From positions 1-21,593 of the IMG/VR virus record IMGVR_UViG_3300032304_000701: a DNA stretch of 21,593 nt, one strand, 5' to 3'. The translations under genes and the position numbers were made by a program. The notes beneath the pieces were generated by a model. The model made no database searches. It saw only the letters and a program-made list of their open reading frames with translations, and had not been told where the DNA came from. Source of the stretch: a virus. Positions 2,117 to 19,953 of the stretch are shown here, one piece after another. The stretch's first letter is position 1. Each line of letters begins with the position of its first letter.

Positions 2117-5100
2117 TTACTGGGGTCTGGTTTCACCTGTGACTGACAGGAACCGTTGTGCAAGGCGGTACTGGCGGTCATCGATCTTTTCCAGCAGTTC
2201 GTCTTTCTCTGCGGTGGTTCTATTCGATGCCAATACTTGACGACGCGCCGTAGCCAACTCGCCTAGCTGCTCACGTACTGCACCGGACAAACTAGCATTG
2301 GCCAACTTGTTGCGGTACTGATCCAAGAAAGCTTGCGCCTCTTGCTCTTTACCAGTCTCCCGCAAACGCTTGTACGTGCCCTGCACCTGTTGAACTTCCA
2401 GTATGCGCTCATATGCAGCATCAAGCGTTCCTCTACCTTCAACCGGCTGGAACAACCCGCCGATGAACGGCTTCTTGCTGGTCTTCATGGTTGGCTGCGC
2501 AACGGTGCTGGCCTCCGTGTTCAGGATAGGATTGGCCAGCGAAACGATTGCAACACCCAAAGCGCCTGTGTAACCACGGATCAGGTAGTCGATCTTGATT
2601 GGAGTCAACCCTGCATCGCCTGTGACGCTGCCCAGCATCTTGGCAAACTCCGTCGTCGTGTCACGATACCGCTCACCCGGCATCAAGGTGGTCTGCTCAC
2701 GCTTGGACTCGATGTCACCACCGAAGAACGAACGGCCAAGAATAACTTCAGTTGCAGGTTTGATTGCCGCTGGCAGAGCAAACGGATTGGATAGCGCCAC
2801 CAGCTTGCCCATGCCTTTGGTGATGTCGTCAGCACGTTCGTCCTGCGCGGCAGTGTTGAACACTGCTTCTGGCAATGCCTTAAACAGATAGCCCAATTCA
2901 AACGGGATAGGTATCTTCATCGGCTCGTCTGAGAACGGCGTGTACACAAACCAGTTACCCAGACGCTCTTCAGGCTTGGCGCGTTTGTACGCTTCGTCAT
3001 CCTCCATCGCCGCAGCGTAGGCCAGTGTGCCCGCAGCCAACAGCAAGCCGCGAGTGTAAAGCTTCTGGCGAATCTTCAATTGTTCGCTGTACGGCATCTT
3101 GCCCGTGAACGCCCGGTACAGCACATCCAGACCTTGGATCTGAGCATTGAAGAACGGGATGACTGTCGAGAGCATCTGCATCGAAGGCGACAAACCGCGA
3201 CGGCTAAAGTTCATCGACTCCAGTGTGCGCATATATGCCTGCATCTCAGACATACCCTTGGCCAGCGAGTCCTTGTAGATCACAGCACGGGTTGCAGCAT
3301 CGCCCTGCATCGCCAGCGCATCGGCTTTCATCATCAGCTTAGTCCAGCCCGAACGACCAAGGCTCATATCGCGCAAAGCTTTGGCCATATCCTGCTCGTC
3401 GCCCGTCATGACGTTGCTGGAGATAGCGCCTGCCTGCATCAACTCAATCTCTTCTTTGCTGCGTCCGGCCACCATCTTACCTAGCTCTTTAAAAGAATTA
3501 AGCACTGGCACACCGTCTGTGCCCGTAGTAAACCAAGCAGTCAGCGGATCACGGATAGCCTGACGCACAGCGTAAGCTGGGTTGCGGGTGACAAACTTTC
3601 TCAGCACATCGGCAGGCATACCCATGATTTTGATGGCCATCGGGATGGTGGTCTTGATACCTTCCATACCCTTAACAATCAACTCTGCCGGGATGCCGTA
3701 CATGTCTGAGTCGATGATGGCAAAGTTGTCTTCGCCCTTGACTTTATAGCGAACTGTGTTCGGACCTTGTGGCCCTTGCCCCTTACCAATCTTGCTTGCG
3801 ATACCCAGACGGCCAAGCAGCATGGCGTTGTCTTTCATAATCTGGTTACGCAAACCCATGCGGGTCAGAACAAACGCGTTCTGCGCCGAGCTTGTAAAGA
3901 TCGGGAGGATAGCTTCGTTGCCGCCAACAAGCTCGTGCAACATCGGCTCGTCTTTCATGTTGGCGATACGAATAGGGCGCTCTTTGTCCACCATCAACTG
4001 CAACTCGCCACCTTGCACACGGTAGAACGGCACGTAGTCAATCGCTTTTAGTTCAGCGCCTTTCTGTGCGCTCAGGTATCCGGTCTGTACAGCAAAATCA
4101 ACCAAGCCGTTGTTGTACTCTTTATAAATCTTGGCGGCTTCTTCAAACGCGGCGCGGGCTTTATCGTTGCCTTTAAGCTCTTCCATCAACCGGTTGTATT
4201 CCTGTTCAACCTTACCGGGGTCTTTAAAGTTCAGCTTGTTCCAGCCCACCTGCTTGGCGCGTTTACCTGCCGTGTAGATGGTAAACATATGTTCCAACTC
4301 GGTGCTGTTTTTGATGCCGGATTTCTCCAGCGCCTGAGCAACCTTGACCATGTTGGCACCGGGTGCGCTCTTGTAAACGAACTCCATGCCGCGCTTAGTC
4401 ATCTGCTTAACCAGTGCCAGTGGGCCGTTGGTCAGCGCCTGTGTAGCAAAAGCATTTGCCTGCTGGCCAAAGCGCAGGTAATAACCTGCCTGCTCGGCTT
4501 CCAAATCAGAGATAACGCCAGCGTCCAGACCTTTCTTAATAGCCGCATCGAGCGCCGCGTACTGGTCAACAAACTGCACACGGCCAGATAAACCAAGGAA
4601 GTTGCCGCGCAGGTTATCGACAACACCTTTCTGGCTACCAACAAAAGAACTACCGTAGCGGCTTGACTCACGCTTAGTACGGAAAGCCATCACGCCGCCT
4701 TCTGCGCGGTAAGGACCGACAGTGCGCTCATTGAAAGCTTTGTTGGCCATCTTAATAGCGTAGAACACATCCGATGTAGACATCCGCGCCATGCCGTTAA
4801 AGCCCATCTGGCGGAGAGCCGAGCGCACCATGCCAACAAACTCTTTCAACCAACGGCCAGCTTTTTCACGGAAGCTTTCAGTGATCCGCTTCTGCGCTGT
4901 GTAAGCAATAACTTCGCGCAGGGCTTGCAGCTTTTGTACTTCTTCAGACTGGCCTTGCTCCGCAGCAAACTTAGCGGCGGCTACTGCTTCACGCACCAAC
5001 GGCTCACCGCCCAGCTTTCGAGCCAACGTAATAACGTCGGTGTCGTTTGCGTACTTCTGCAACCGGTCCATGCCAATGACGGTGTCGATGCCGTAGTGGC

Positions 5101-8100
5101 CAACCATCTCGTGGAACAACGTCTCTTCCAGATCAGTCACGCTAGTGTGCTGGTCGCCCACCACAACGATAGTGCCGTCAGACAGCACCACGCCTTTAAA
5201 CGCCTCGCCCTCTTTGTACCCACCCTCAACCAACTTCGTCAGTAGCTCAGGCTTTATGTCTGCCAGCGTTGGGGCGTAAACAAGATTCACGCCTTTGGGT
5301 AGCGTAGAGAGGGTCTCTACTATCAACTTCTTTGCTTCTGCCGGGTCAACCGGCGTAGCTGGTGCTTTGGCTGTGCGAAACGCAAGCCCTGCGTCATCCG
5401 CACCTTCTCTAAAATCTTTTTCAGTTTTCTTCCGTTCTTCGCCTGTCATCTTGCGACGGAAACCTTCTTGCCGCGCAGCAGACGCAGCTTGGCTTTCAGC
5501 CGAACCCGTTGTCATTGTGCTGAGTTTAGGCAACTTGCGTGTGGCCTGCGTTGTGCGCTTGGACTTGACCTCTTGCTTACCTGCGGCTACAGCCTTTTTA
5601 AATTCTTTGGTCTCTTCCAGTTTCTTACTGCGATACTCAGGCAGCGTCTTACCAATAGCTTCCGCTTTAGCGTTCAAGTCTGCTGCCACAGAATCTTTAA
5701 ATTCTTTTAGCGCGGCAATACGCTTGTTAGCTTCTTTAATGGCTGCGGCTTCTTTTTCTTTGTACAAGTCAGACGTATCGCCAACTTGTTTCTTCAAAGC
5801 CGCAAGTGCTTTGTTTGTCTTTTCAATAAAGGTGTTGTGCGCTTTTACTCTGGCGTCCACTTTCTTTTGCGCAGTAGTTGCCAGCTTTTGGTATTCCTCA
5901 GTTTCAAAACCAAGCTCACGTGCAACCCGCGCAGCAGATGCGCTAACTTTACCTTCTTCAACTTTCTTGGTTTGCTTGGCTTCACGCGACATTTCACGGG
6001 CAGACTTACCCAGCGCCGCAGTCTCTGCGGCCTTTTGCCGTGGCGTTGCTACTTCGGTTGTTTTGTACAGCTTGGCCATAGCGGCATCAAGCTTGTCACG
6101 GTACGGCTTAATACGGTTTACTGACTTTGTGTAGTTGCGTAAAGAGGTGTCAACTTGGTTTTGTAGTGCAGTAATTTTGGCCGCAGGCGCTTTCTCTGCT
6201 TGTGCAGCCTCCAGCTTGGCCAGCCGTGCTTCGTATATAGCGTAGTTATCGTGAGCGATTTGAAGCATGGAACGCTTGGCATTGCCAATTGGCTTTTCTA
6301 CTGTATCACGCAGATCTGCTATTTCTTGCGCAACCGCATCTGACACATAAATTTCTTGCCGCTCGTTATTGATTGTGGCTTCATACACATCATAGTTGCG
6401 CTCACGACGAACAATGCGGTCGATCTTATCTTTCAGTGCTTCATATACTTCATCCCGTGGGGACAATTTAGATGCTGCCGCAGCCAACGCTTTCTTGTCT
6501 GCTTCTTCACGAGCGCGTTGCATGTTAGCAATAGTGCGCTCATCCCGATTTTGAATGGCCGTGTTTAGCAGATTAAAGTCGCTAAACAAATCAAGCGTAA
6601 TACCTGTCCGTGTTTCTTTCTCTGGCGGCAGCGGGCCTGCGGCAGCTTCTTTTTCTTTAACAACTTCTGTCGCCTGCGGCGCTGCCTCTTCCGGGAACAT
6701 CGGGAGTGTTTCACCAACAGGCACGGCGTTAATACGCAGAGCTTCGCGTTGCTGTTCGGCAGTTGCTTGCTGCTCGGCTTGCTGTGCTTTCAGTTCGTCT
6801 AGCTTGGTGGCCAAGCTCGGCATAGCAGCAAAATCGCCAGTCTCAGCAGCATCTGACAGTTTCTTTTGTGCTGCCTTAATCTGTTTATCAAGCGCTTTCT
6901 GTGCTTTTGCTACGTCAGTCTCAAAGACTTCCGGGGCTTTGGTCGTACCACCCAACGCCTCAATCTGTGCGCCAAGCTCTTGCAGTTGTGCTTGCTGTTG
7001 CTGATATGCAGGTACAAGTTGATTGATTGCTGCCGTGTCGCCCTTGGCGGCGGCTTCCTGCATTTGCGTTTCAAGTGGGGCTAAAGCAGTTTGTGCTTCC
7101 CGGTACTGGTCCATCATTTGCTGGACGTTACCTTGTACAACTGTCGTTTCAGGACGTACAGGCAACTGCGATGTGCGCAGGGCACGAGCTTCACCTTTTA
7201 TTTCGTCGTACTCTTTCTTGAGCGGTTTGAATTCTTCAATCTGCTCTTTGTATTTGCGTTGCAGTCCAGCGTAAATATCTTGCTGGCCTTCGGTCGCGTC
7301 TTTGCCGGGCTTGGCTGCTTTTAGTTGTTGCTGTGTTTCAGTCAGCGCAGCCTTTGCGGCATCGTGGCGATCTGCAATACCCAGTATGTATTCAGGCTTG
7401 GCTTTCTCTGCCGCTTCTGCTTCACGTAGTTCTTTGGCTTTCTTTGCTGCCTCCAGCGCGTCGCCTCTGGCAACTTCTTCTCTTGCACCGCTAACCTGCA
7501 CCCTACGACCAACACCACCAAACGGACCACCAAAGAGCGCAGCGCCGTAGGCAGCTTCGCTGTATTCTTTCAACGCGTTGTCGTCCATCAACGGCATATT
7601 GGCTTGCCAACGCTCCAGCATCTGCTGCCCAACTTCTGTGGGGATTTCAGCCAACAAACCTTTACCAGTACCTTTGGCAATCGATGTGGCCAGACGCTCT
7701 TCAGCCAGCTTGCGGGCTGCGGGGGATACCAATGCCTGAGCGCCTTCCTTTTCTGCAATACCCAGTATGCGGCTCATCAGCTTGCCGCCCAGCGGCACCA
7801 CCATAGCGGCGGTTTCCAGACTTGCTTGCCCTGCGGCAGACAGTGCAGTTTTACCGGGGTCTTGTGGGAGTCCTTCAGCAGCCCGCCGTTCAGCGCCTGC
7901 ACCATAGGCTTGGAAAGCCAGAGGCAAGAGAGCGCCAGCAATACCGCCACCTATCACACCGGGCAAACCACCCGGCGCACCGGCCATAGCCCCCAGACGA
8001 CCTGTAGCAAACGCTTGTGCTAATTGCGGAGACTGTTCAGCAATAAAGCCCGGAGCCTGACGCAGCACTTCCCCAGCGGCGGAGAAGAAGCCGTCATTCG

Positions 8101-8419
8101 CGTACTTTTCTTTAACCTTCTCAAGACTTAGTGCGGACGGTGTTTTTTCTTCCAACTCACGGCTGCGTTTTAGTCCGGCCTGTGCAGCTTCTTCTGGATT
8201 GACAAAAGATTCCAGCGCCGTGCGCTGGGACGACAGTAGTTTCTTAGCTCCGCCAATACCGCTCTCAATTATGCCCGGTTCTCTTGGTTTAGGCGCTTCT
8301 TCTGGCTTAGCACCAAACGCTTGCGGGTATTTTTTGTACGCCTCAAGAAACGCTTGCTGCGTGTTCATCCCTTTGGGAATTTCGTAGTAAGACCCGTCAG
8401 GCAGAGAAAGGTACGCCAT
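2117..8419 (-). CDS. 2100-aa polyvalent ejection protein with HExxH metallopeptidase motif
   Basis: Probably a giant internal virion protein injected into the host with the DNA. The N-terminus (LPDGSYYEIPKGMNTQQAF) is the short motif that opens many phage ejection proteins. Residues ~125-190 are Gly/Ala-rich and hydrophobic. Residues ~305-960 are Lys/Glu/Ala/Gln-rich with coiled-coil character. At 1103-1108 is HEMVGH, the zinc-peptidase HExxH signature, within ETLFHEMVGHYG as in the metallopeptidase domain of phage polyvalent proteins. Residues ~1400-1900 resemble the large polyvalent protein-associated (LPD38-like) C-terminal region, including a segment around FVTRNPAYAVRQAIRDP. A hydrophobic stretch lies near 1790 (GLLLAAGTLAYAAA). 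Start: ATG at 8419 with GAGG five bases upstream; stop TAA. It is the last gene of the late operon, directly after the 573-aa protein. Peptidase activity is inferred from the motif; the injection role comes from context and family resemblance. Confidence 0.8.
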   Translation of the reverse strand: MAYLSLPDGSYYEIPKGMNTQQAFLEAYKKYPQAFGAKPEEAPKPREPGIIESGIGGAKKLLSSQRTALESFVNPEEAAQAGLKRSRELEEKTPSALSLEKVKEKYANDGFFSAAGEVLRQAPGFIAEQSPQLAQAFATGRLGAMAGAPGGLPGVIGGGIAGALLPLAFQAYGAGAERRAAEGLPQDPGKTALSAAGQASLETAAMVVPLGGKLMSRILGIAEKEGAQALVSPAARKLAEERLATSIAKGTGKGLLAEIPTEVGQQMLERWQANMPLMDDNALKEYSEAAYGAALFGGPFGGVGRRVQVSGAREEVARGDALEAAKKAKELREAEAAEKAKPEYILGIADRHDAAKAALTETQQQLKAAKPGKDATEGQQDIYAGLQRKYKEQIEEFKPLKKEYDEIKGEARALRTSQLPVRPETTVVQGNVQQMMDQYREAQTALAPLETQMQEAAAKGDTAAINQLVPAYQQQQAQLQELGAQIEALGGTTKAPEVFETDVAKAQKALDKQIKAAQKKLSDAAETGDFAAMPSLATKLDELKAQQAEQQATAEQQREALRINAVPVGETLPMFPEEAAPQATEVVKEKEAAAGPLPPEKETRTGITLDLFSDFNLLNTAIQNRDERTIANMQRAREEADKKALAAAASKLSPRDEVYEALKDKIDRIVRRERNYDVYEATINNERQEIYVSDAVAQEIADLRDTVEKPIGNAKRSMLQIAHDNYAIYEARLAKLEAAQAEKAPAAKITALQNQVDTSLRNYTKSVNRIKPYRDKLDAAMAKLYKTTEVATPRQKAAETAALGKSAREMSREAKQTKKVEEGKVSASAARVARELGFETEEYQKLATTAQKKVDARVKAHNTFIEKTNKALAALKKQVGDTSDLYKEKEAAAIKEANKRIAALKEFKDSVAADLNAKAEAIGKTLPEYRSKKLEETKEFKKAVAAGKQEVKSKRTTQATRKLPKLSTMTTGSAESQAASAARQEGFRRKMTGEERKKTEKDFREGADDAGLAFRTAKAPATPVDPAEAKKLIVETLSTLPKGVNLVYAPTLADIKPELLTKLVEGGYKEGEAFKGVVLSDGTIVVVGDQHTSVTDLEETLFHEMVGHYGIDTVIGMDRLQKYANDTDVITLARKLGGEPLVREAVAAAKFAAEQGQSEEVQKLQALREVIAYTAQKRITESFREKAGRWLKEFVGMVRSALRQMGFNGMARMSTSDVFYAIKMANKAFNERTVGPYRAEGGVMAFRTKRESSRYGSSFVGSQKGVVDNLRGNFLGLSGRVQFVDQYAALDAAIKKGLDAGVISDLEAEQAGYYLRFGQQANAFATQALTNGPLALVKQMTKRGMEFVYKSAPGANMVKVAQALEKSGIKNSTELEHMFTIYTAGKRAKQVGWNKLNFKDPGKVEQEYNRLMEELKGNDKARAAFEEAAKIYKEYNNGLVDFAVQTGYLSAQKGAELKAIDYVPFYRVQGGELQLMVDKERPIRIANMKDEPMLHELVGGNEAILPIFTSSAQNAFVLTRMGLRNQIMKDNAMLLGRLGIASKIGKGQGPQGPNTVRYKVKGEDNFAIIDSDMYGIPAELIVKGMEGIKTTIPMAIKIMGMPADVLRKFVTRNPAYAVRQAIRDPLTAWFTTGTDGVPVLNSFKELGKMVAGRSKEEIELMQAGAISSNVMTGDEQDMAKALRDMSLGRSGWTKLMMKADALAMQGDAATRAVIYKDSLAKGMSEMQAYMRTLESMNFSRRGLSPSMQMLSTVIPFFNAQIQGLDVLYRAFTGKMPYSEQLKIRQKLYTRGLLLAAGTLAYAAAMEDDEAYKRAKPEERLGNWFVYTPFSDEPMKIPIPFELGYLFKALPEAVFNTAAQDERADDITKGMGKLVALSNPFALPAAIKPATEVILGRSFFGGDIESKREQTTLMPGERYRDTTTEFAKMLGSVTGDAGLTPIKIDYLIRGYTGALGVAIVSLANPILNTEASTVAQPTMKTSKKPFIGGLFQPVEGRGTLDAAYERILEVQQVQGTYKRLRETGKEQEAQAFLDQYRNKLANASLSGAVREQLGELATARRQVLASNRTTAEKDELLEKIDDRQYRLAQRFLSVTGETRPQ

Positions 8420-8436
8420 GTAATCCTCGTTATTTA

Positions 8437-10158
8437 TTACTTACGCACGTTAGCATTCTGCGGCAACTCATTGACAACCGTGGGGCCGGATAGTTGTTGA
8501 TTTGCAATCATGTAGTGTTGGAAAGTCGGGTATTGCTTTTTAAAGTCCCCGTACATGTCTTTTTGCAAGTTGTCGTTGTATTCTTTAAACAGCAGCGCTG
8601 GCGTAATCGCCCCGCGTTCGCCACTCCGCGCACCATAAGCCGAAGCCATAATATTAGCTTTACGTATGTCAGCAACATCTCGTTCACGCGAACGGAGTGT
8701 CTCTTGCTGCTGCTGGTATATTGTGCGTTGATCTTGAGAACGAAGAGTGTCGAGCGTGTTAACCCGTTCACCCGCAGCCTTGAGCGTTTCACCAGAGATT
8801 TTAGCCAACCCTTCAATCTTGGAACGCTTAATACCCAACCCGGCTTCAAACGCTTGCTGTTTAAGTGCTTCCGCTTCTTTCCAATCACCGCGGGCTTCGG
8901 CACGGCGGCTTTCTTCAATCATAGCGGCTTGTTTGCGGCGTTCCACCGCAGCCGCTTCCAGTTTCTCCAAACCTTCTTGATACTGCTTGGTACCCACCAG
9001 CGCACCTTCCGAGATATTTTGAAGTGCATACTGGGACCTGCCTCCTGCAATAGCCAGACCGGCGTTGATCAACGCCATATTAAGATTCTTTGCTTCTTTG
9101 CCTTTGGCCTTCTCTTCTTCTTTGCCCAGCAAAGCTTCCAGCCCCTCATACGCTTTGCCTTTTGGTTTGCTTTCTTCTCTTTCTCTCGCCCGTTTTGCAA
9201 AGCCTTTTTCAGCCTCAGTAGCCAGCGTATCGTACTCAGAACCGTCAGGCAAAAACCCACGCATACGTTTGTATTCTGCGGTTAAGTCGCCTGCTGCTCC
9301 GGGAGTAAAACCGGGCATTTGTTCAGGGCCTGCTTTTCCGTCTTTGGTAATCCCCGCGCCGGGGCGTTTGGCGGCTGCATTTTTCCCGGCATCTGTTTTT
9401 GTATTAAAAGGATTAGCCGTGTCCCGCCCTGTATAAACATTGCCCTCATCTATTGGCGCGGGGTAGTCGGCTTTCTCACCTTTCTTCTTACCTTCAACCG
9501 CATAGCCCGGTTTTTTCTCTACAGGCGCTGGGGCTTGGAATTGTTCTAGTGCAGGTGCGGTTGCTGTTTTATTGCGTAATTGTGCTAACCGTTGTTCTGC
9601 AAATGTGCGTTGAGGTCCGCCAAATGGATTAGCATCTATAATGCTTTGCATTTTTGCTATTTCGTCAACTACGTCTTGCGCTGATGCTTCTCCCATCCGG
9701 GTTGCAACCAATTGATTAAACGAGTTACTTGCACGAGGCGCTGGGATCATTTGATCTTGCCTAAATCCTTGCCCAACCAAACTCGGACCTTCTCCAGCAA
9801 ACGCCACAATCCCACCATTTGCGTACTCATCTGCGTACGAGTCGCCATATCCGGCGATGCCGCCGTCAGCCATGGTTGCTACATTTTCCGCAGGCAACAT
9901 ACCAATGCCTTGCTGTTCTGGTAGTTGAGGCTGGGGCATCGGCGCTGGTGCGCCCATCTGTGCAATCGCTTGGTCTGCCACGGTAGGCTGTTGGGCAGCT
10001 TGCTGCTGTCCCCCCGCACGGAGTTGCGCACGACGCTTACTTTCCGATGCTGCCAGCGCCAGAGTGTAGGGGTCGTTCTTGTGAATTTGGGCGTACTGAC
10101 GCAATTGTGCGTCAGACATCTTGGCCATACGAGAAGTGAGTTCATTTACATTCAGCAT
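8437..10158 (-). CDS. 573-aa internal virion / ejection protein
   Basis: No enzyme domain is recognisable. The protein resembles conserved internal virion proteins of environmental podoviruses. It has an N-terminal helical part (residues 1-55, with DPYTLALAASESKRR), a Gln/Pro-rich linker, and two Gly-Gly motifs: ADGGIAGY (97-104) and ANGGIVAFA (113-121). A disordered Lys/Gly/Pro-rich middle follows. From ~305 to 500 there are long charged helices interrupted by ALINAGLAIAGG, a short hydrophobic segment that recurs in such proteins. The start is ATG at 10158, two bases after the stop of the 332-aa gene, with a strong GGAGAAGG ribosome-binding site lying inside that gene's end; this supports translational coupling. 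The stop is TAA at 8437-8439, 17 bases before the 2100-aa gene. The role, part of the ejection complex, is inferred from neighbours and composition. Confidence 0.72.
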   Translation of the reverse strand: MLNVNELTSRMAKMSDAQLRQYAQIHKNDPYTLALAASESKRRAQLRAGGQQQAAQQPTVADQAIAQMGAPAPMPQPQLPEQQGIGMLPAENVATMADGGIAGYGDSYADEYANGGIVAFAGEGPSLVGQGFRQDQMIPAPRASNSFNQLVATRMGEASAQDVVDEIAKMQSIIDANPFGGPQRTFAEQRLAQLRNKTATAPALEQFQAPAPVEKKPGYAVEGKKKGEKADYPAPIDEGNVYTGRDTANPFNTKTDAGKNAAAKRPGAGITKDGKAGPEQMPGFTPGAAGDLTAEYKRMRGFLPDGSEYDTLATEAEKGFAKRAREREESKPKGKAYEGLEALLGKEEEKAKGKEAKNLNMALINAGLAIAGGRSQYALQNISEGALVGTKQYQEGLEKLEAAAVERRKQAAMIEESRRAEARGDWKEAEALKQQAFEAGLGIKRSKIEGLAKISGETLKAAGERVNTLDTLRSQDQRTIYQQQQETLRSRERDVADIRKANIMASAYGARSGERGAITPALLFKEYNDNLQKDMYGDFKKQYPTFQHYMIANQQLSGPTVVNELPQNANVRK

Positions 10159-10160
10159 GA

Positions 10161-11159
10161 TTACGCCTTCTCCATATCGTAAAGCAACAACTCAGACAGC
10201 CCTGCGGGGGAGTCCGACTCTTTAATTGCTCCGCCTTCTTTGGCTTGTTTTGTACCGCCCGGATTACCGAACATACCGTAAGCTGCAAGCCCTAAACCGC
10301 CAAGCTGTGACAGCGTAGATGGTGGTGCTTGGTACATTGTCGATGCAGTTTGAGACAACGGCAAGCCGCGCAGCATGTCGGACATAAACGCTAACTGCTG
10401 ATACGGATGCTGACGCTGATTTGCAAAGTCCTGATACTGTTGCGCCAAACGCTGCTGCTCCAGCGCCTGTTGTTGCTGACCCAAACTGGCCTGTCCTTGG
10501 ATAGCTGCTTGCTGTTGACCAAACTGAGTCTGCCCTAACTGCCCCAAAGTACCTGCCATCTGACCTGCGGTTTGCATACCTTGCAATCCCAGCGTTGAAC
10601 CAAACTGTTGCGCTTGACGCGCTTGCTCAAAGGCCGTCTGCATTCCCCTGCCGTAGATGTCGCCCATCTGGTTTTGCAAATTACGCTGGCGCTCTGCTTC
10701 TACGATGGCAGAACGCGAACCACCAAAGGCACCCTGCTGTACAGCTTGTGCTTGGTTTTGCTGGCCCAGCATAGCGGACTGACGTTGCGCCTCGCGCATC
10801 TGAGGAGCCAGCGCGTTTTCTACATACGGCGACATGTACGCTTGCATAGCATAGGGGTTGGTGGCTTGCATAGCATAATTTTGACCTGCACCCATAGCAC
10901 CCAGCCCGGCGAGTCCTGCCATCTGCGTACCAACACCTAACTGTTTTGCTGGCCCCAAGTTCGCCGCTGATTGCTGCGCTTGTTGTTGCATCGGGGTAAA
11001 CCCAGCGATTCTTTCTCCGCCATAAGCCTGATATGGTGCATTACTCAGCGCCTCGGTTTTACCCAGCATCTTCTCCACATACGGCTTGGCGTATTCCGGG
11101 ATCGACGTGGTCGTCTGAGTTGTATTAGTTGGTTGTGAAGGTTGTGACGGTGAGCACAT
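10161..11159 (-). CDS. 332-aa Gln/Ala-rich internal virion / ejection protein
   Basis: This is a low-complexity structural protein, probably part of the ejected core. After a Ser/Thr/Gln-rich start comes IPEYAKPYVEKMLGK and then PYQAYGGERIAGFTPMQQQ, a segment typical of this phage protein class. Residues ~45-260 are an almost uninterrupted Gln/Ala/Gly-rich helical region (QAQQ, GQQQAAIQGQASLGQQQQ), expected to form elongated helices. The C-terminus has a Gly/Leu-rich patch and an EGGAI motif (308-312) like those in the other ejection proteins. The second residue is Cys, but there is no signal peptide, so this is not a lipoprotein. Start ATG at 11159 with AGGT four bases upstream. It lies seven bases after the GNAT gene and two bases before the 573-aa gene. 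No enzymatic role is suggested. Confidence 0.7.
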   Translation of the reverse strand: MCSPSQPSQPTNTTQTTTSIPEYAKPYVEKMLGKTEALSNAPYQAYGGERIAGFTPMQQQAQQSAANLGPAKQLGVGTQMAGLAGLGAMGAGQNYAMQATNPYAMQAYMSPYVENALAPQMREAQRQSAMLGQQNQAQAVQQGAFGGSRSAIVEAERQRNLQNQMGDIYGRGMQTAFEQARQAQQFGSTLGLQGMQTAGQMAGTLGQLGQTQFGQQQAAIQGQASLGQQQQALEQQRLAQQYQDFANQRQHPYQQLAFMSDMLRGLPLSQTASTMYQAPPSTLSQLGGLGLAAYGMFGNPGGTKQAKEGGAIKESDSPAGLSELLLYDMEKA

Positions 11160-11166
11160 AATGACC

Positions 11167-11628
11167 TCAGAATGTATATATCATTTGAACTGCCGCTTCT
11201 TTAAAGCCCATACGCTTCCAAAGTTTGGCGACTCTCAAATCGGTAAGCGCTGCGACTGATACTCTTTTTACACCGCGCTCTTTTAACTCTTCAAGAATAA
11301 CTTTTACCAGCTTCTTACCAACACCATTCCGGTGTTCTTTCAACACAAAAATTGTATCTTCCTGTGCAATCAAATCGCCGTTATGCATATCGTTGGTAAG
11401 GTATACGTTGCTGTACCCCACCGCTTTTTCCCCAGACCGCAAAATAAACGTTAGCAGCCATCCACCATCACCCGCTTTTATATACTCATCCAATCGCGGA
11501 TTGTACGGAGAACACGGTATGCCATCTGCTTCCAGACGCGCTGTCATCTCCGCGTAGTGCTGGCGGTACAGCGGCTCAAGTTCCTCATAGGTTTCCTTGA
11601 ACCGCCCAAGATGAAATGTGTAGCTCAT
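11167..11628 (-). CDS. GNAT-family N-acetyltransferase
   Basis: A 153-residue acetyl-CoA-dependent acyltransferase. The pattern EDTIFVLKEHRNGVGKK contains the acetyl-CoA pyrophosphate-binding loop R100-N-G-V-G104-K. It is followed by the usual helix and the C-terminal motif AKLWKRMGFKE, the standard end of the GNAT fold. The N-terminal ~60 residues (helices with REHY/MTARLEADG-like character, then WLLTFILRSGEKAVGY) fit the acceptor-binding half. The ATG at 11628 overlaps the end of the 737-aa gene by four bases (ATGA), so the two are probably translated together. GNAT-like proteins are known in T7-like phages, but the acceptor here is unknown; candidates are a virion protein or a host protein. 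The family is confident, the substrate is not. Confidence 0.88.
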   Translation of the reverse strand: MSYTFHLGRFKETYEELEPLYRQHYAEMTARLEADGIPCSPYNPRLDEYIKAGDGGWLLTFILRSGEKAVGYSNVYLTNDMHNGDLIAQEDTIFVLKEHRNGVGKKLVKVILEELKERGVKRVSVAALTDLRVAKLWKRMGFKEAAVQMIYTF

Positions 11629-13838
11629 GCTGGCAGAAGTTTTTCTGCCTTGGTGTTACGCGCCACTTGATCTTTACCAACAGTTTTGCGTCGGGCTTTT
11701 TGCACACGGTCCATCATGGCGTAGAGTTTTCTTGCTCCGGCTTCTGTACTTCCGTTTCCAATTTCAGAAACAATTCGTGCAGGTACCACAAATTCCCCGT
11801 CAGCAAGACGAGCGGGCTGACGACTGCCAATAGAAGCAGGGATAGAATCAGATACACCATCGCCCGGACCTTTCAACAAACGCCCACCATCAGAATAATC
11901 ACCAAGTGTTGACACCCCACCACCCGCTGCGTAGCCACCGTAACCACCCAACTGCTGGTTCATGTAGTCATAAAACCCGCCCAGACCAAGCTGCTGTTCT
12001 GGCGTTTGGTACGCAGGGATGTCAATATTAGGCACAAACGGTTGCGCTGGCGATGTTGGCTGTCTTACTGGTGTTGCTATACCACCGGATACTGCGCCGT
12101 CTGGCGTTGATGCGCCCTGCGCCCAGCTTGGGGTAAAGTCATACGGCTGCCCAGTTGCTTGCGCTTTGTTGAGCCGTTTCATCATATCAAAAGTGGCTAT
12201 TTCTGGGCTTGGTGGTTTTGCTGCTGATGGCCCCCCAGTTTGCGTAAACTGCATTGTTTTTGGGTCGTACGAGTACTCATACCCGCTACTTTTGTTTTGT
12301 GGGTCTACTGTACCACCACCTTCTGCAAACCGAGCTTCGCCAGTATAAGCGGCCACCCCGGCATCGGCTGACGGGGCAATTACATTCGTGGCTTCAGGGC
12401 GCTGCATCATGGGGTTGCTGTAGACGGGCGTATTGATGTTTGCCATTGGGTACCCTGCATTTGCACCAACAGCGTTCATGGCCGACATCTGCTCAACAGG
12501 CCCACCAACAGCAAACGAAGCTAAACCGCCCTCTGCTTTTTTGTACTCAGGACCCGGCGCTTCGTAAGGGGTGAGCGCTGTGAATGATGGCTGGAAGTAC
12601 GTACGCTCTGCGCTGCCTGAGTACGGCTCAAAAGCTGTATCGGTAGGGCCGTAGCTAAACTCATAGGGGCGAATCATGCCGGGTGATTCTTTCTTACGGT
12701 TGCGCATTTCCTCTTCTGCTTTTTCTTGTCTTTCAATTGCGTAAGTTCCTGCTGTGCCGCCAAGACCCGCTGCAATAGAATATTTTGGCATCGCATCAGC
12801 CAACGCCCCTAACCCATCAACGCCTCCAGCGTATACCTTCTCCGCGCCGCGCCCCACCTGTGACATGTAGTCGGTGTAAGGACGGCTAACGGTTTGTCCA
12901 GAAAGATCCACCGCGTTTGACGGTTGAGCGACGCTGGGCAGCTTACCTGCGAACTGCTGGGTTGTTGTTGCCGTGCTGGGTGCGTAGTTAGGAACGACGC
13001 CCTGTGCAACCTCTGATGTGGGGGGCAAAGTTCTAATCTTGCCGCTAATGTCTGTGAAGTATGGCGAACCTTTGTCAATTGGGGAGACAAACGGTTGTTT
13101 CATCCGATCAATCAACGTAGCGTGTTTTGGCACAACTTTTGGCACATCAAACCCACCTACTGCATCTGATACTAGCGCGTGTCTTTCAGCCACAGAAGTA
13201 GGCGTAAGGCCGGGAGCCGCAGGGATTGGTTTTGGCATACCCGTTGCAAAATTCACATTTGCGTACTGTGGGAGCCGCGCTTGTACAAGATTGGTAGAGG
13301 TCATGCCCGGCGTTGGGGTATTAAATACCGCCGATCTTTGGAACCCAGCAGAGGGGTTAAACGCCGCATTTGGTGAAAATACGTTGGAGTTTGCCCCTGC
13401 ATAGTTTGCTAAGTCATCTGCGGTATTTGCTATGGCTGTTTTGGCAGCGTTAGCGCCTGTCGCGCCCGCATTAGCGCCTGCTGTAGCACCCATAGCATTT
13501 AGACCACCTGCCAAGCCAGCACCGCCATAAGCACCCAGACCGGCCATGATGCCCTTCTTCAGACTGCCGGTAGCAGCGGTATACCCAGCACCAGTAATGA
13601 GCGCAGCAGACAAACCGCCGGTAAGTGGGGCCAGACCAAAGCCGATCAGTGTGGGGAGAAGCGAGCGCAAAAAGCTGGCTTCGGGCAGACCTGTGTGGGG
13701 GTTGATCGTGAGGGAGCCGCCATGCGCCATCGCAAGGGATTGAAGACCACTGACCTCACCGGGGGTCATATGGACAAGGACTTTATCCTCACCGCGTCCG
13801 GCGGACTGTACTTGGCTGGCTGAATCGTGGAGGCTCAT
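11625..13838 (-). CDS. 737-aa Gly/Ala-rich ejection protein with membrane-like segment
   Basis: Probably an internal virion protein that helps form the DNA-ejection channel. Residues 1-55 are a compact domain (LVHMTPGEVSGLQSLAMAHG, then SLTINPHTGLPEASF) common to environmental podovirus proteins. Residues ~57-140 are strongly hydrophobic and rich in Gly/Ala, suitable for membrane insertion. The middle is Pro/Gly-rich and probably disordered, with Gly-Gly motifs AEGGLASF (435-442), AEGG (505-508) and AGGGV (from 638). The C-terminus (LADGEFVVPARIVSEIGNGS, then AGARKLYAMMDRV) is a motif I associate with phage ejection-type proteins. Start ATG at 13838 with GAGG about six bases upstream, after the only sizeable gap in the operon. 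The end overlaps the GNAT gene by four bases. The functional assignment is inference from composition and position. Confidence 0.72.
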   Translation of the reverse strand: MSLHDSASQVQSAGRGEDKVLVHMTPGEVSGLQSLAMAHGGSLTINPHTGLPEASFLRSLLPTLIGFGLAPLTGGLSAALITGAGYTAATGSLKKGIMAGLGAYGGAGLAGGLNAMGATAGANAGATGANAAKTAIANTADDLANYAGANSNVFSPNAAFNPSAGFQRSAVFNTPTPGMTSTNLVQARLPQYANVNFATGMPKPIPAAPGLTPTSVAERHALVSDAVGGFDVPKVVPKHATLIDRMKQPFVSPIDKGSPYFTDISGKIRTLPPTSEVAQGVVPNYAPSTATTTQQFAGKLPSVAQPSNAVDLSGQTVSRPYTDYMSQVGRGAEKVYAGGVDGLGALADAMPKYSIAAGLGGTAGTYAIERQEKAEEEMRNRKKESPGMIRPYEFSYGPTDTAFEPYSGSAERTYFQPSFTALTPYEAPGPEYKKAEGGLASFAVGGPVEQMSAMNAVGANAGYPMANINTPVYSNPMMQRPEATNVIAPSADAGVAAYTGEARFAEGGGTVDPQNKSSGYEYSYDPKTMQFTQTGGPSAAKPPSPEIATFDMMKRLNKAQATGQPYDFTPSWAQGASTPDGAVSGGIATPVRQPTSPAQPFVPNIDIPAYQTPEQQLGLGGFYDYMNQQLGGYGGYAAGGGVSTLGDYSDGGRLLKGPGDGVSDSIPASIGSRQPARLADGEFVVPARIVSEIGNGSTEAGARKLYAMMDRVQKARRKTVGKDQVARNTKAEKLLPA

Positions 13839-16113: not shown

Positions 16114-16716
16114 CTACCTGAACGGTGGGCCACCGACCCATAAGACCAATGAACGCCTGACACCCTTCGTCACGGGCGCTACCCGGTGCAACATGTATGA
16201 CGGAAAAAACCAAGCCCGCCCCTTTTTAATCTCTAGCGTTCTGGCTTCGTCGTTTGTGGTTTTAACTTGAAACTCCCCACCCTCAAACTCCGACGAATCA
16301 GATAACAAAATTACTACCGACAACTTGCGGGGTACTCCCTTGTCTTGGGATGAAGCATCTGAGTGCCAATCGTAGTGCCCTTTTGCTTTTGCCGTGTACA
16401 CGCCCAACTGCATGGGTTCGTGAAACCCGGTCAAATCATAGTGAAAATACCTGCGATTTACCTCGGCGACAACCCCCGCCAGTTTAGCCCATAAAGGCTC
16501 CAAATCAGGCCGCGCACCTATCCAACCAACCTTAGTTTCCCGAATATCTGGGTTAACCTCCGACGCACCGCCCAAGCCGCCAATACAAGCAGACTCTGTC
16601 TGTAACCACTCCGGTTGCGCCAGTATGAAGTTAATGTCCTCCTGCGTCAGAAACCCGTCCCAAAAGGCAAGCTCCTCTTGTCCGTAGTTGGTGCGGTCAG
16701 GAATCGGATAAATCAT
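16114..16716 (-). CDS. 2OG-Fe(II) dioxygenase A, prolyl-hydroxylase-like (200 aa)
   Basis: Predicted 2-oxoglutarate- and Fe(II)-dependent hydroxylase. The double-stranded beta-helix core shows H118-S-D120 (in HYDWHSDAS), distal H177 (in FPSYMLHRVAPV) and R187 as the likely 2-oxoglutarate anchor. The segments LSVVILLSD and EFEGGEF before the distal His are typical of the P4H/PKHD-type hydroxylases. Length (200 aa) is normal for a stand-alone core. I chose the ATG at 16716 because it overlaps the stop of the upstream oxygenase by four bases (ATGA) and begins at the first family-like residues; a longer in-frame extension to 16917 would run deep into the preceding gene. It is the last of four consecutive oxygenase genes and lies just before the main tail gene. 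Substrate unknown; protein side chains (Pro, Asn, Lys) are usual for this branch. Confidence 0.9.
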   Translation of the reverse strand: MIYPIPDRTNYGQEELAFWDGFLTQEDINFILAQPEWLQTESACIGGLGGASEVNPDIRETKVGWIGARPDLEPLWAKLAGVVAEVNRRYFHYDLTGFHEPMQLGVYTAKAKGHYDWHSDASSQDKGVPRKLSVVILLSDSSEFEGGEFQVKTTNDEARTLEIKKGRAWFFPSYMLHRVAPVTKGVRRSLVLWVGGPPFR

Positions 16717-17198
16717 GCGTACCCCAAAGGTTTGTGCGTCCACGGATTCACTGCAACAGACAGGCGCGTCCCGGTGTATTTCTCGACCCCATGCAACAAA
16801 CCGGGGGAGAACACAACCATGCGGTTTGTTATTGGCCGCACTGACACTGTCTCTGTTACAAAATTGCCGCCAACCACATCGATGTCGGCGTAGTAAACAA
16901 TGCTGCAAATCGGGCACTCGGTGTTGCCTGACATCTGGTACAACTTCTCATCCTTGTCAATGTGCCAGTCAGGCCGTGTTCCGTAGTGCGCCCAGTACTC
17001 ACTGCCAGCCATTAAGGACAAATCAAAATAATCTGCCGCTTTTCTTAGCAACAGCGCCATCGGCGAGTTGTTGCCGTGTAGCTTGTCTACCCCACCCGGC
17101 TCCCATTTCATCTTCCGCGCTTCGTCACTCTGGGAGAAGAACCCCACCACCGCCAGACGATGCTCCTCGTCCAAAACGTCGTCCAGTACTATCAACAT
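16713..17198 (-). CDS. 2OG-Fe(II) dioxygenase B (161 aa)
   Basis: Small 2OG-Fe(II) oxygenase with H79-I-D81 (in PDWHIDKDE), distal H136 (in SPGLLHGVE) and R145 (in TGTRLSVAVNPW). The strand CSIVYYADIDVVGGNF between them is the expected core, and its VVGGNF corresponds to the GGE loop of the family. Two Cys (C95, C98) lie just before this strand. The protein is short, close to a minimal core. Start ATG at 17198, overlapping the end of oxygenase C by seven bases; the ribosome-binding site is weak, so coupling to upstream translation is likely. Sequence resemblance to oxygenases A, C and D is confined to the motifs, so these are not recent tandem copies. Substrate unknown. Confidence 0.85.
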   Translation of the reverse strand: MLIVLDDVLDEEHRLAVVGFFSQSDEARKMKWEPGGVDKLHGNNSPMALLLRKAADYFDLSLMAGSEYWAHYGTRPDWHIDKDEKLYQMSGNTECPICSIVYYADIDVVGGNFVTETVSVRPITNRMVVFSPGLLHGVEKYTGTRLSVAVNPWTHKPLGYA

Positions 17199-17752
17199 TT
17201 TTTGTACACCAGCGCCAAAGTAAATCTAAAAAACGACGCCAAGTGTGACTGCGGTCTGATGGTGTGTGGAATTCGGCCATCAAAAACTATGATCCGTCCC
17301 GGTGTGTATGGGCTTGCATACACAATGTCTTTACAGGACTCATCAAAGAACAGCGTCTCACCATGCCAGCCGTCTCGCCACTCCAAGTTCACGTAGTACA
17401 GTATTACCTTGTCTTCTGGGTGCGAATGCACAAAGTTGGCATCTGCTGGCGTGGATAAATTTAGGATGCACTTATCTCGCTTATACCCCACAAACTCCTG
17501 ACCAACAGGCGTTTGCTCCAGCTTACTAATCAACCTCAACTTATCTAAGTCCTCATCCGAATATACGGAATGCAGGAACTTATGCTGCATATTTTCTACG
17601 ATGCATCCATCTGCCCAACCTATTTGGAACAAGGAGCTCTGCGCAAAGTTGTACACCCGATTGCGAAACTCAAAGTCCAGCACATTGTCGTAGACCCGCA
17701 AACTCCTGCCGTTATCTACCTGTACATCCTGAATCAATTGGTTGCGAAGCAC
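17192..17752 (-). CDS. 2OG-Fe(II) dioxygenase C with HxE motif (186 aa)
   Basis: Oxygenase of the type found in cyanophages and other aquatic phages: a conserved LYYVNLEWRDGWHGETLFFD stretch, then PGRIIVFDGRIPH with the distal H163, and R176 in the final FRFTLALVY strand. In the first metal site these proteins usually read HPD, but here the sequence is H109-S-H111-P-E113, so the ligand pair is probably H111 and E113. HxE is used by some active members of the superfamily, so activity is plausible. The start is GTG at 17752, supported by GGAGG seven bases upstream (GGAGGTGTTGTCGTG); it overlaps oxygenase D by 19 bases. The stop overlaps oxygenase B. Substrate unknown. Confidence 0.87.
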   Translation of the reverse strand: MLRNQLIQDVQVDNGRSLRVYDNVLDFEFRNRVYNFAQSSLFQIGWADGCIVENMQHKFLHSVYSDEDLDKLRLISKLEQTPVGQEFVGYKRDKCILNLSTPADANFVHSHPEDKVILYYVNLEWRDGWHGETLFFDESCKDIVYASPYTPGRIIVFDGRIPHTIRPQSHLASFFRFTLALVYKKC

Positions 17753-19077: not shown

Positions 19078-19953
19078 TTACCCCGCCGGTCCTTCTCGTG
19101 TGCCCGTTGCCGCCCATGTCACAAACGGATTGCCAATGATGTAATAGCCCGCACCGCCGCCGGGACCACCAGAGCGTGGGTTTGCACCACCAATAGGACT
19201 TCCGCCACTACCTGCTGCACCGCGTCCACCACCGGGACCACCGGGCGCTGGAGCACCGCCGCCGCCACCACCAGAACTACTGTTACCACCACTACCGGGA
19301 CGGCCACCGCCACCACCGCCACCACCGTCAAAGCCCGCACCGCCACCACCTCCACCACCCCAATCAGAAGGACCTTTATTTGGGGTAAGCCCCGCACCTG
19401 CGCCACCGCCCCCGCCACCACCAGCAATCACGCTGTTGTTTGTAATAGTCACAGGGCGGTTGACATATAGCGCATTACCGCCGCCATTACCAGCAATACC
19501 GTTACTTGCCCCAAACTGCCCCGGACCACCATCTCCCCCACGACCTTGGATAACGCCGTTGTTGGTAATGGTTACTGCATCGCCGGGGCTAAATGATGAT
19601 GGCACCAGCATGGCGTATGTGCCTGTGGATGTGCTACCTACCGTGACACCGGGTGACACAGTTACATTAACATTTGCTTTGCCAGCTACGTATGCAGGGT
19701 TCGTAGATGCTTGTGTATACACATCGTAGTTATAAACAGGCGATCCAATAGTCAGCGGGACATCTACACGGTTGGCGGTGCCATAAAAGTTATTGGCAGC
19801 AATAGTGCCTGATGAGGGGATGGTTGTTGTAGTGGAGCTAACGGGCACCAACCCACCGCCACGGTAGTATTCGTTCAGACCAATAGGGTTCGTGCCACCA
19901 AACTCAGTTTGGATGTTGGTAAACGCCAGCGGTCCAGACGAAGGCAGCGCCAT
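19078..19953 (-). CDS. Glycine-rich tail adhesin-like protein (291 aa)
   Basis: Probably a tail-tip or fibre protein that contacts the host surface. The N-terminus (MALPSSGPLAFTNIQTEFGG, then PIGLNEYYRGG) is a conserved opening shared by many phage tail proteins. Residues ~65-175 are beta-rich and include paired VTITNNGVI / VTITNNSVI strands like a beta-helix. Residues 178-269 are a low-complexity tract in which 52 of 92 residues are Gly, with nine Pro. This is reminiscent of the polyglycine-II sandwiches of T-even gp38-type adhesins; that comparison is by composition only. The last ~22 residues (YYIIGNPFVTWAATG) form a hydrophobic cap. Start ATG at 19953, two bases after the stop of the 244-aa gene. 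Adhesin role: moderately sure. Confidence 0.75.
   Translation of the reverse strand: MALPSSGPLAFTNIQTEFGGTNPIGLNEYYRGGGLVPVSSTTTTIPSSGTIAANNFYGTANRVDVPLTIGSPVYNYDVYTQASTNPAYVAGKANVNVTVSPGVTVGSTSTGTYAMLVPSSFSPGDAVTITNNGVIQGRGGDGGPGQFGASNGIAGNGGGNALYVNRPVTITNNSVIAGGGGGGGAGAGLTPNKGPSDWGGGGGGGAGFDGGGGGGGGRPGSGGNSSSGGGGGGAPAPGGPGGGRGAAGSGGSPIGGANPRSGGPGGGAGYYIIGNPFVTWAATGTREGPAG
19147..19422 (-). repeat. Low-complexity tract encoding 92 glycine-rich residues
   Basis: A GC-rich run of GGN codons (read as NCC on the + strand) encodes residues 178-269 of the adhesin-like protein: uninterrupted blocks of seven, seven, eight and six Gly separated by short Ala/Pro/Ser/Asn inserts. Codon third positions vary, so this is not a simple DNA microsatellite and the glycine content is probably selected at protein level. 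Confidence 0.85.

Follow-up and report, generated by a model that had tools for sequence, protein, structure and literature searches.

What could a protease motif be doing in the middle of a 2100-aa phage protein, and what would such a protease cut? The question is raised by a 21,593-nt stretch of viral DNA (IMG/VR record IMGVR_UViG_3300032304_000701, positions 1 to 21,593), called the window here. The initial annotation had placed a 2100-aa product at 2117-8419 with HEMVGH at residues 1103-1108, and both stand. The open reading frame, P0001, lies on the minus strand behind a GAGGA ribosome-binding site, and the motif occupies bases 5113-5096. The features of P0001 and its neighbours are as follows.

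2117..8419, minus strand: LPD38 polyvalent/ejection-type protein P0001, 2100 aa, with its ATG at 8419
7430..8419, minus strand: N-terminal region of P0001, residues 1-330, Gly/Ala-rich, conserved in many relatives
5405..7429, minus strand: helix-rich low-complexity region, residues 331-1005, varying in length and sequence among relatives
5366..5386, minus strand: upstream linker motif LAFRTAK, residues 1012-1018, candidate processing or docking site
4808..5371, minus strand: predicted zincin-like core, residues 1017-1204 (AlphaFold2 pLDDT 91.9, pTM 0.83)
5147..5149, minus strand: His1091, conserved in alignments, after the third strand (GDQH)
5096..5113, minus strand: HEMVGH, residues 1103-1108, predicted HExxxH zinc and general-base motif, from alignments
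5084..5086, minus strand: Asp1112, conserved in alignments, after the motif (HEMVGHYGID)
4913..4915, minus strand: Glu1169, candidate third zinc ligand on the second C-terminal helix, invariant, in helix 1159-1176 of the model
4670..4690, minus strand: downstream linker motif MAFRTKR, residues 1244-1250, candidate processing or docking site
2117..4660, minus strand: conserved C-terminal module, residues about 1254-2100 (43-sequence alignment, mean column identity 47%)
2462..2998, minus strand: LPD38 domain, residues 1808-1986 (Pfam PF18857)
8437..10158, minus strand: 573-aa protein directly upstream of P0001, no family found
10161..11159, minus strand: 332-aa neighbour, DNA ejection protein family (phrog_4287, E 3.1e-21)

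P0001 is probably an ejection-type polyvalent protein, in which an N-terminal region is followed by a helical 'cargo', an embedded zincin-like domain and a C-terminal module with LPD38. The LPD38-like C-terminal part named in the initial annotation is borne out by Pfam (E 1.4e-26), and a score of 94.2 bits against the curated cut-off of 27 identifies P0001 as an LPD38 polyvalent protein. Searches of P0001 with Pfam, NCBIfam, PHROGs and PADLOC returned nothing else direct besides one uninformative PHROG, and the C-terminal module has no detectable sequence match to any chain in the PDB. The N-terminal region contains one weak transmembrane-like stretch at about residue 151. Residues 331-1005 are rich in A/E/K/Q/R/L (60%), hold only 7% G+P and lack Trp, a composition that argues for a helix-rich region. 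A coiled-coil-like region of ~650 residues had been described here; its helix-rich composition is confirmed, whereas a heptad coiled coil stays a candidate. In the cargo of six relatives, a Pfam search found no enzyme domains, LPD38 being the sole match.

Other genes of the window deserve brief mention. A GNAT acetyltransferase gene (11167-11628, minus strand) sits between structural and ejection-type genes. Three consecutive minus-strand ORFs at 16114-17752 match 2OG-Fe(II) oxygenase families (one match strong, one marginal and one weak) and form an unusual tandem cluster. A Gp38-like tail fibre adhesin is encoded at 19078-19953 on the minus strand (Pfam E 6e-10).

HEMVGH had been taken for a metallopeptidase-like motif of the HExxH class. 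A conserved zincin-like domain is indeed predicted around it, but the class does not hold: the spacing is HExxxH (more exactly HExxGH), with His at i and i+5, and the HExxH reading was rejected. A search through P0001 for the classical HExxH, with His at i and i+4, found none. P0001 has only eight His and zero Cys, and three of the eight (His1091, His1103 and His1108) fall inside the domain. Across 25 aligned sequences from relatives 21-90% identical to the window, His1103, Glu1104, Gly1107, His1108 and Glu1169 are invariant. Likewise, a larger set of 80 sequences with residues there shows no variation at the two His and the Glu of the motif; part of this set was retrieved with the motif itself, and 27 sequences collected with out-of-domain patterns alone are equally invariant. 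His1091 is present in 73 and Asp1112 in 68 of the 80 sequences that have a residue at the position.

Structure prediction, proposed earlier as the way to find a third zinc ligand, points to Glu1169 (REVIAY), 61 residues past the second motif His. The confident AlphaFold2 core model (188 aa, built from 60 sequences) comprises one helix and three short strands, followed by the helices that bear HExxGH and Glu1169; in core numbering, the first helix is H10-23 and the strands are E30-33, E60-62 and E68-71, and HEMVGH lies within helix 1094-1114 of P0001. An earlier model, built from 25 sequences with the linkers included, gave helix-dominated PDB matches of no use and was superseded by this deeper one. 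Foldseek against the PDB placed an M61 peptidase and lethal-factor-like zincins near the top, none of them significant (E at least 0.27, probability at most 0.54). The domain matches no Pfam, NCBIfam or PHROG model. Judged from alignments and model together, it agrees with the HEXXXH variant of the zincin-like MPTase known from phage polyvalent proteins, an already described kind. His1103, His1108 and Glu1169 would bind zinc, with Glu1104 acting as the general base.

Does the protease slot persist in other phages? Relatives were collected from IMG/VR by peptide patterns lying outside the domain, and those of at least 1500 aa that were not cut at the 5' end were counted as complete (n=52). Every one of the 52 carries exactly one HExxH or HExxxH motif, where shuffling predicts 0.58, although the 52 share kinship and are not independent of each other. 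A second, independent set, picked from bacterial genomes and prophages by LPD38, has HExxGH in 9/9 intact giant proteins (about 0.9 expected). Loss of the motif with the rest conserved, which would have spoken against a protease, was found in no full-length intact relative; there other zincin subtypes occupy the domain's place. The motif is absent only from short LPD38-only proteins and from one broken prophage gene. Two such short proteins (826 and 841 aa), without an N-terminal cargo, have no zincin motif. In the broken prophage copy (L230), the motif has decayed to HELVGN and the gene is interrupted ahead of the C-terminal module; we thus set aside its reading as a natural gene fission with protease loss.

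The slot is constant and its occupant is not. Three motif subtypes occur among the relatives: HExxGH (that of the window), HExGVH and HExxH. Profiles of HExxGH and HExGVH are homologous (E 1.4e-6), and comparison of the HExxGH with the HExxH profile detected no homology outside the motif. At least 11 subtype changes are needed on a 54-row tree of the C-terminal module, where the minimum possible is 2. Near-identical C-terminal modules bear differing subtypes (L077 versus L042 and L060; L055 versus L063), and L009 has a different sequence in place of residues about 1005-1245, between flanks that are 42% and 60% identical. As far as sequences tell, the protease domain is frequently swapped, not deleted, in full-length intact relatives, and this repeated exchange without loss suggests that the protease does an essential job.

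The linkers on either side of the domain give a lead as to what that job may be. LAFRTAK upstream and MAFRTKR downstream form an AFRT-like repeat that brackets the zincin-like domain of P0001; both lie in low-confidence stretches (block pLDDT below 60 in the first model), and the best match to the downstream site anywhere in P0001 is the upstream site. A test for such 'bookends' gave p<=0.05 in 15 of 33 non-redundant relatives, which are not independent. In HExGVH relatives, FSRG precedes the domain without exception, and the C-terminal module is often preceded by [FL]S[RK]. Two close relatives with the HExxH subtype (L043 and L047) have no such linker motif. The bookend motif itself is faint or missing in a number of relatives, among them PTXU04 and some HExxH types. 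Global tripeptide enrichment proved uninformative as a test, being dominated by shared ancestry. Because the bookend motif is patchy outside P0001 and the relatives are non-independent, we regard it as a lead and not a result. A 3108-aa prophage protein of Acinetobacter sp. MB5 (L160, ORF 4402-13725) has two tandem HExxGH zincins (HEIIGH and HELGGH) together with InPase, ddrB-ParB, MuF_C and LPD39 domains, and FSR/YSR occurs between its domains.

The zincin most likely cuts the giant protein itself, a reading to which we give about an even chance and which we place ahead of a host-directed protease and then of a structural role. Cleavage would fall in the flanking linkers, close to the repeated A-[FY]-R / [FY]-S-R motif, in the same chain or in a sister copy, and would free the N-terminal part from the C-terminal module either at virion maturation or just after ejection. 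We prefer self-processing because the protease accompanies fused cargo and is missing from the two cargo-less proteins, and because the domain is exchanged along with adjoining linker sequence and the linker motifs are repeated. Processing was already proposed for the MPTase polyvalent class by Iyer et al. 2017, citing P1 DdrB (PMC5512222). According to the same source, the N4 virion RNA polymerase, which bears an MPTase-type HExxH domain, is packaged uncut, and this counts against self-processing; any cutting may therefore follow ejection. The patchy bookend motif, the kinship of the relatives and the lack of a significant Foldseek match weaken the reading further. A bolder version is that giant ejection proteins are true polyproteins, in which an interchangeable zincin and its own cleavage sites on both sides (A-[FY]-R or [FY]-S-[RK]) move between phages as one cassette; we offer it tentatively.

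A less probable account is that the zincin is an injected protease against a host protein, from a defence system or housekeeping, and that subtype exchange reflects changing host targets. Delivery at entry is presumed for LPD38/MPTase proteins (PMC5512222), frequent exchange is typical of arms-race modules, and gp25 of Escherichia phage PTXU04 is among the genes reported to be toxic in E. coli or to interfere with infection when expressed (PMC11879866), although this toxicity may stem from other regions of the protein. A target-directed effector would be expected to go missing now and then, but all 52 complete relatives have the slot filled. Moreover, in a knockdown screen on laboratory E. coli the phage required gp25 to plate efficiently (PMC11879866), a stronger requirement than counter-defence factors usually show, although knockdown takes away the protein as a whole. 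As read from sequence, the comparative pattern seems to fit self-processing better than a host target, without deciding between the two.

It is rather unlikely that the zincin fold has been kept as a building block of assembly or the ejectosome, with catalysis irrelevant. HExxH domains are part of solved ejection proteins (the PhiM1 tetrameric protein, other internal virion proteins and N4-type virion RNA polymerase), and the N4 C-terminal region is required for encapsidation (PMC5512222). A pure scaffold would not need active-site residues, however, and here the catalytic residues are invariant though identity across most of the domain falls to about 20%, while subtypes alike in little beyond the active site replace one another. 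We consider it very improbable that a virion maturation protease acts on other head or ejection proteins and not on P0001 itself, since the domain forms part of the P0001 chain and is swapped along with neighbouring linker sequence, even though the gene sits among structural and ejection-type genes. For self-processing, the flanking linker motifs supply a concrete prediction of the cut positions.

Zincin-like proteases are described as the commonest domain of polyvalent proteins, and their MPTase layout has three strands, a preceding helix and two C-terminal helices, with an existing HEXXXH variant (PMC5512222). The core model of P0001 matches this layout in its three-stranded sheet and preceding helix, and the variant in the predicted placement of HExxxH on the first C-terminal helix and of the candidate ligand Glu1169 on the second. 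One phage-type MPTase subgroup has a conserved His at a strand end and an Asp three residues past the motif (PMC5512222); His1091 and Asp1112 are their counterparts in P0001. A term search of that paper found no mention of a linker motif that recurs or of subtypes being exchanged while the C-terminal module stays fixed. The kind of domain is thus known, and the evolutionary pattern of subtype exchange on the C-terminal module is apparently undescribed. Dipeptidyl peptidase III (M49) also has an HExxGH motif, in a different context, and the M49 profile is not among the Pfam matches of 25 members at E<=5.

Among solved structures, the HExxH profile of the relatives matches the internal virion or ejection proteins 9sfn (E 2e-14), 23sg (4e-8) and 8vb2 (1e-7), as well as the virion RNA polymerase 11fw (3e-5), and these matches support reading the group as ejection proteins. 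In the tetrameric ejection protein of PhiM1 (8vb2 chain A), the match covers residues 379-514, with HEAAH, and is to the HExxH zincin carried by P0001's close relatives, not to P0001's own domain. Its authors describe residues 268-528 as endolysin/exotransglycosidase-like and do not mention a protease (PMC11440229). The N4 virion RNA polymerase, an ejected protein, resembles P0001 in having an N-terminal functional part, an HExxH domain and a large helical C-terminal region (PMC12633501), and its authors point out the HExxH in the C1 domain, residues 2124-2375 (PMC12633501). P0001 differs in lacking an RNA polymerase and in having HExxGH instead of HExxH.

The most useful parallel is PTXU04 gp25, a 2197-aa protein encoded by a large gene that ends the structural block, with HEIIVH at residue 1161 and a homologous C-terminal region. 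Identity to P0001 is about 22% over that region, the motif is HExxVH rather than HExxGH, and gp25 shows no clear bookend motif. With the same architecture, gp25 makes the protease role testable in a laboratory E. coli phage.
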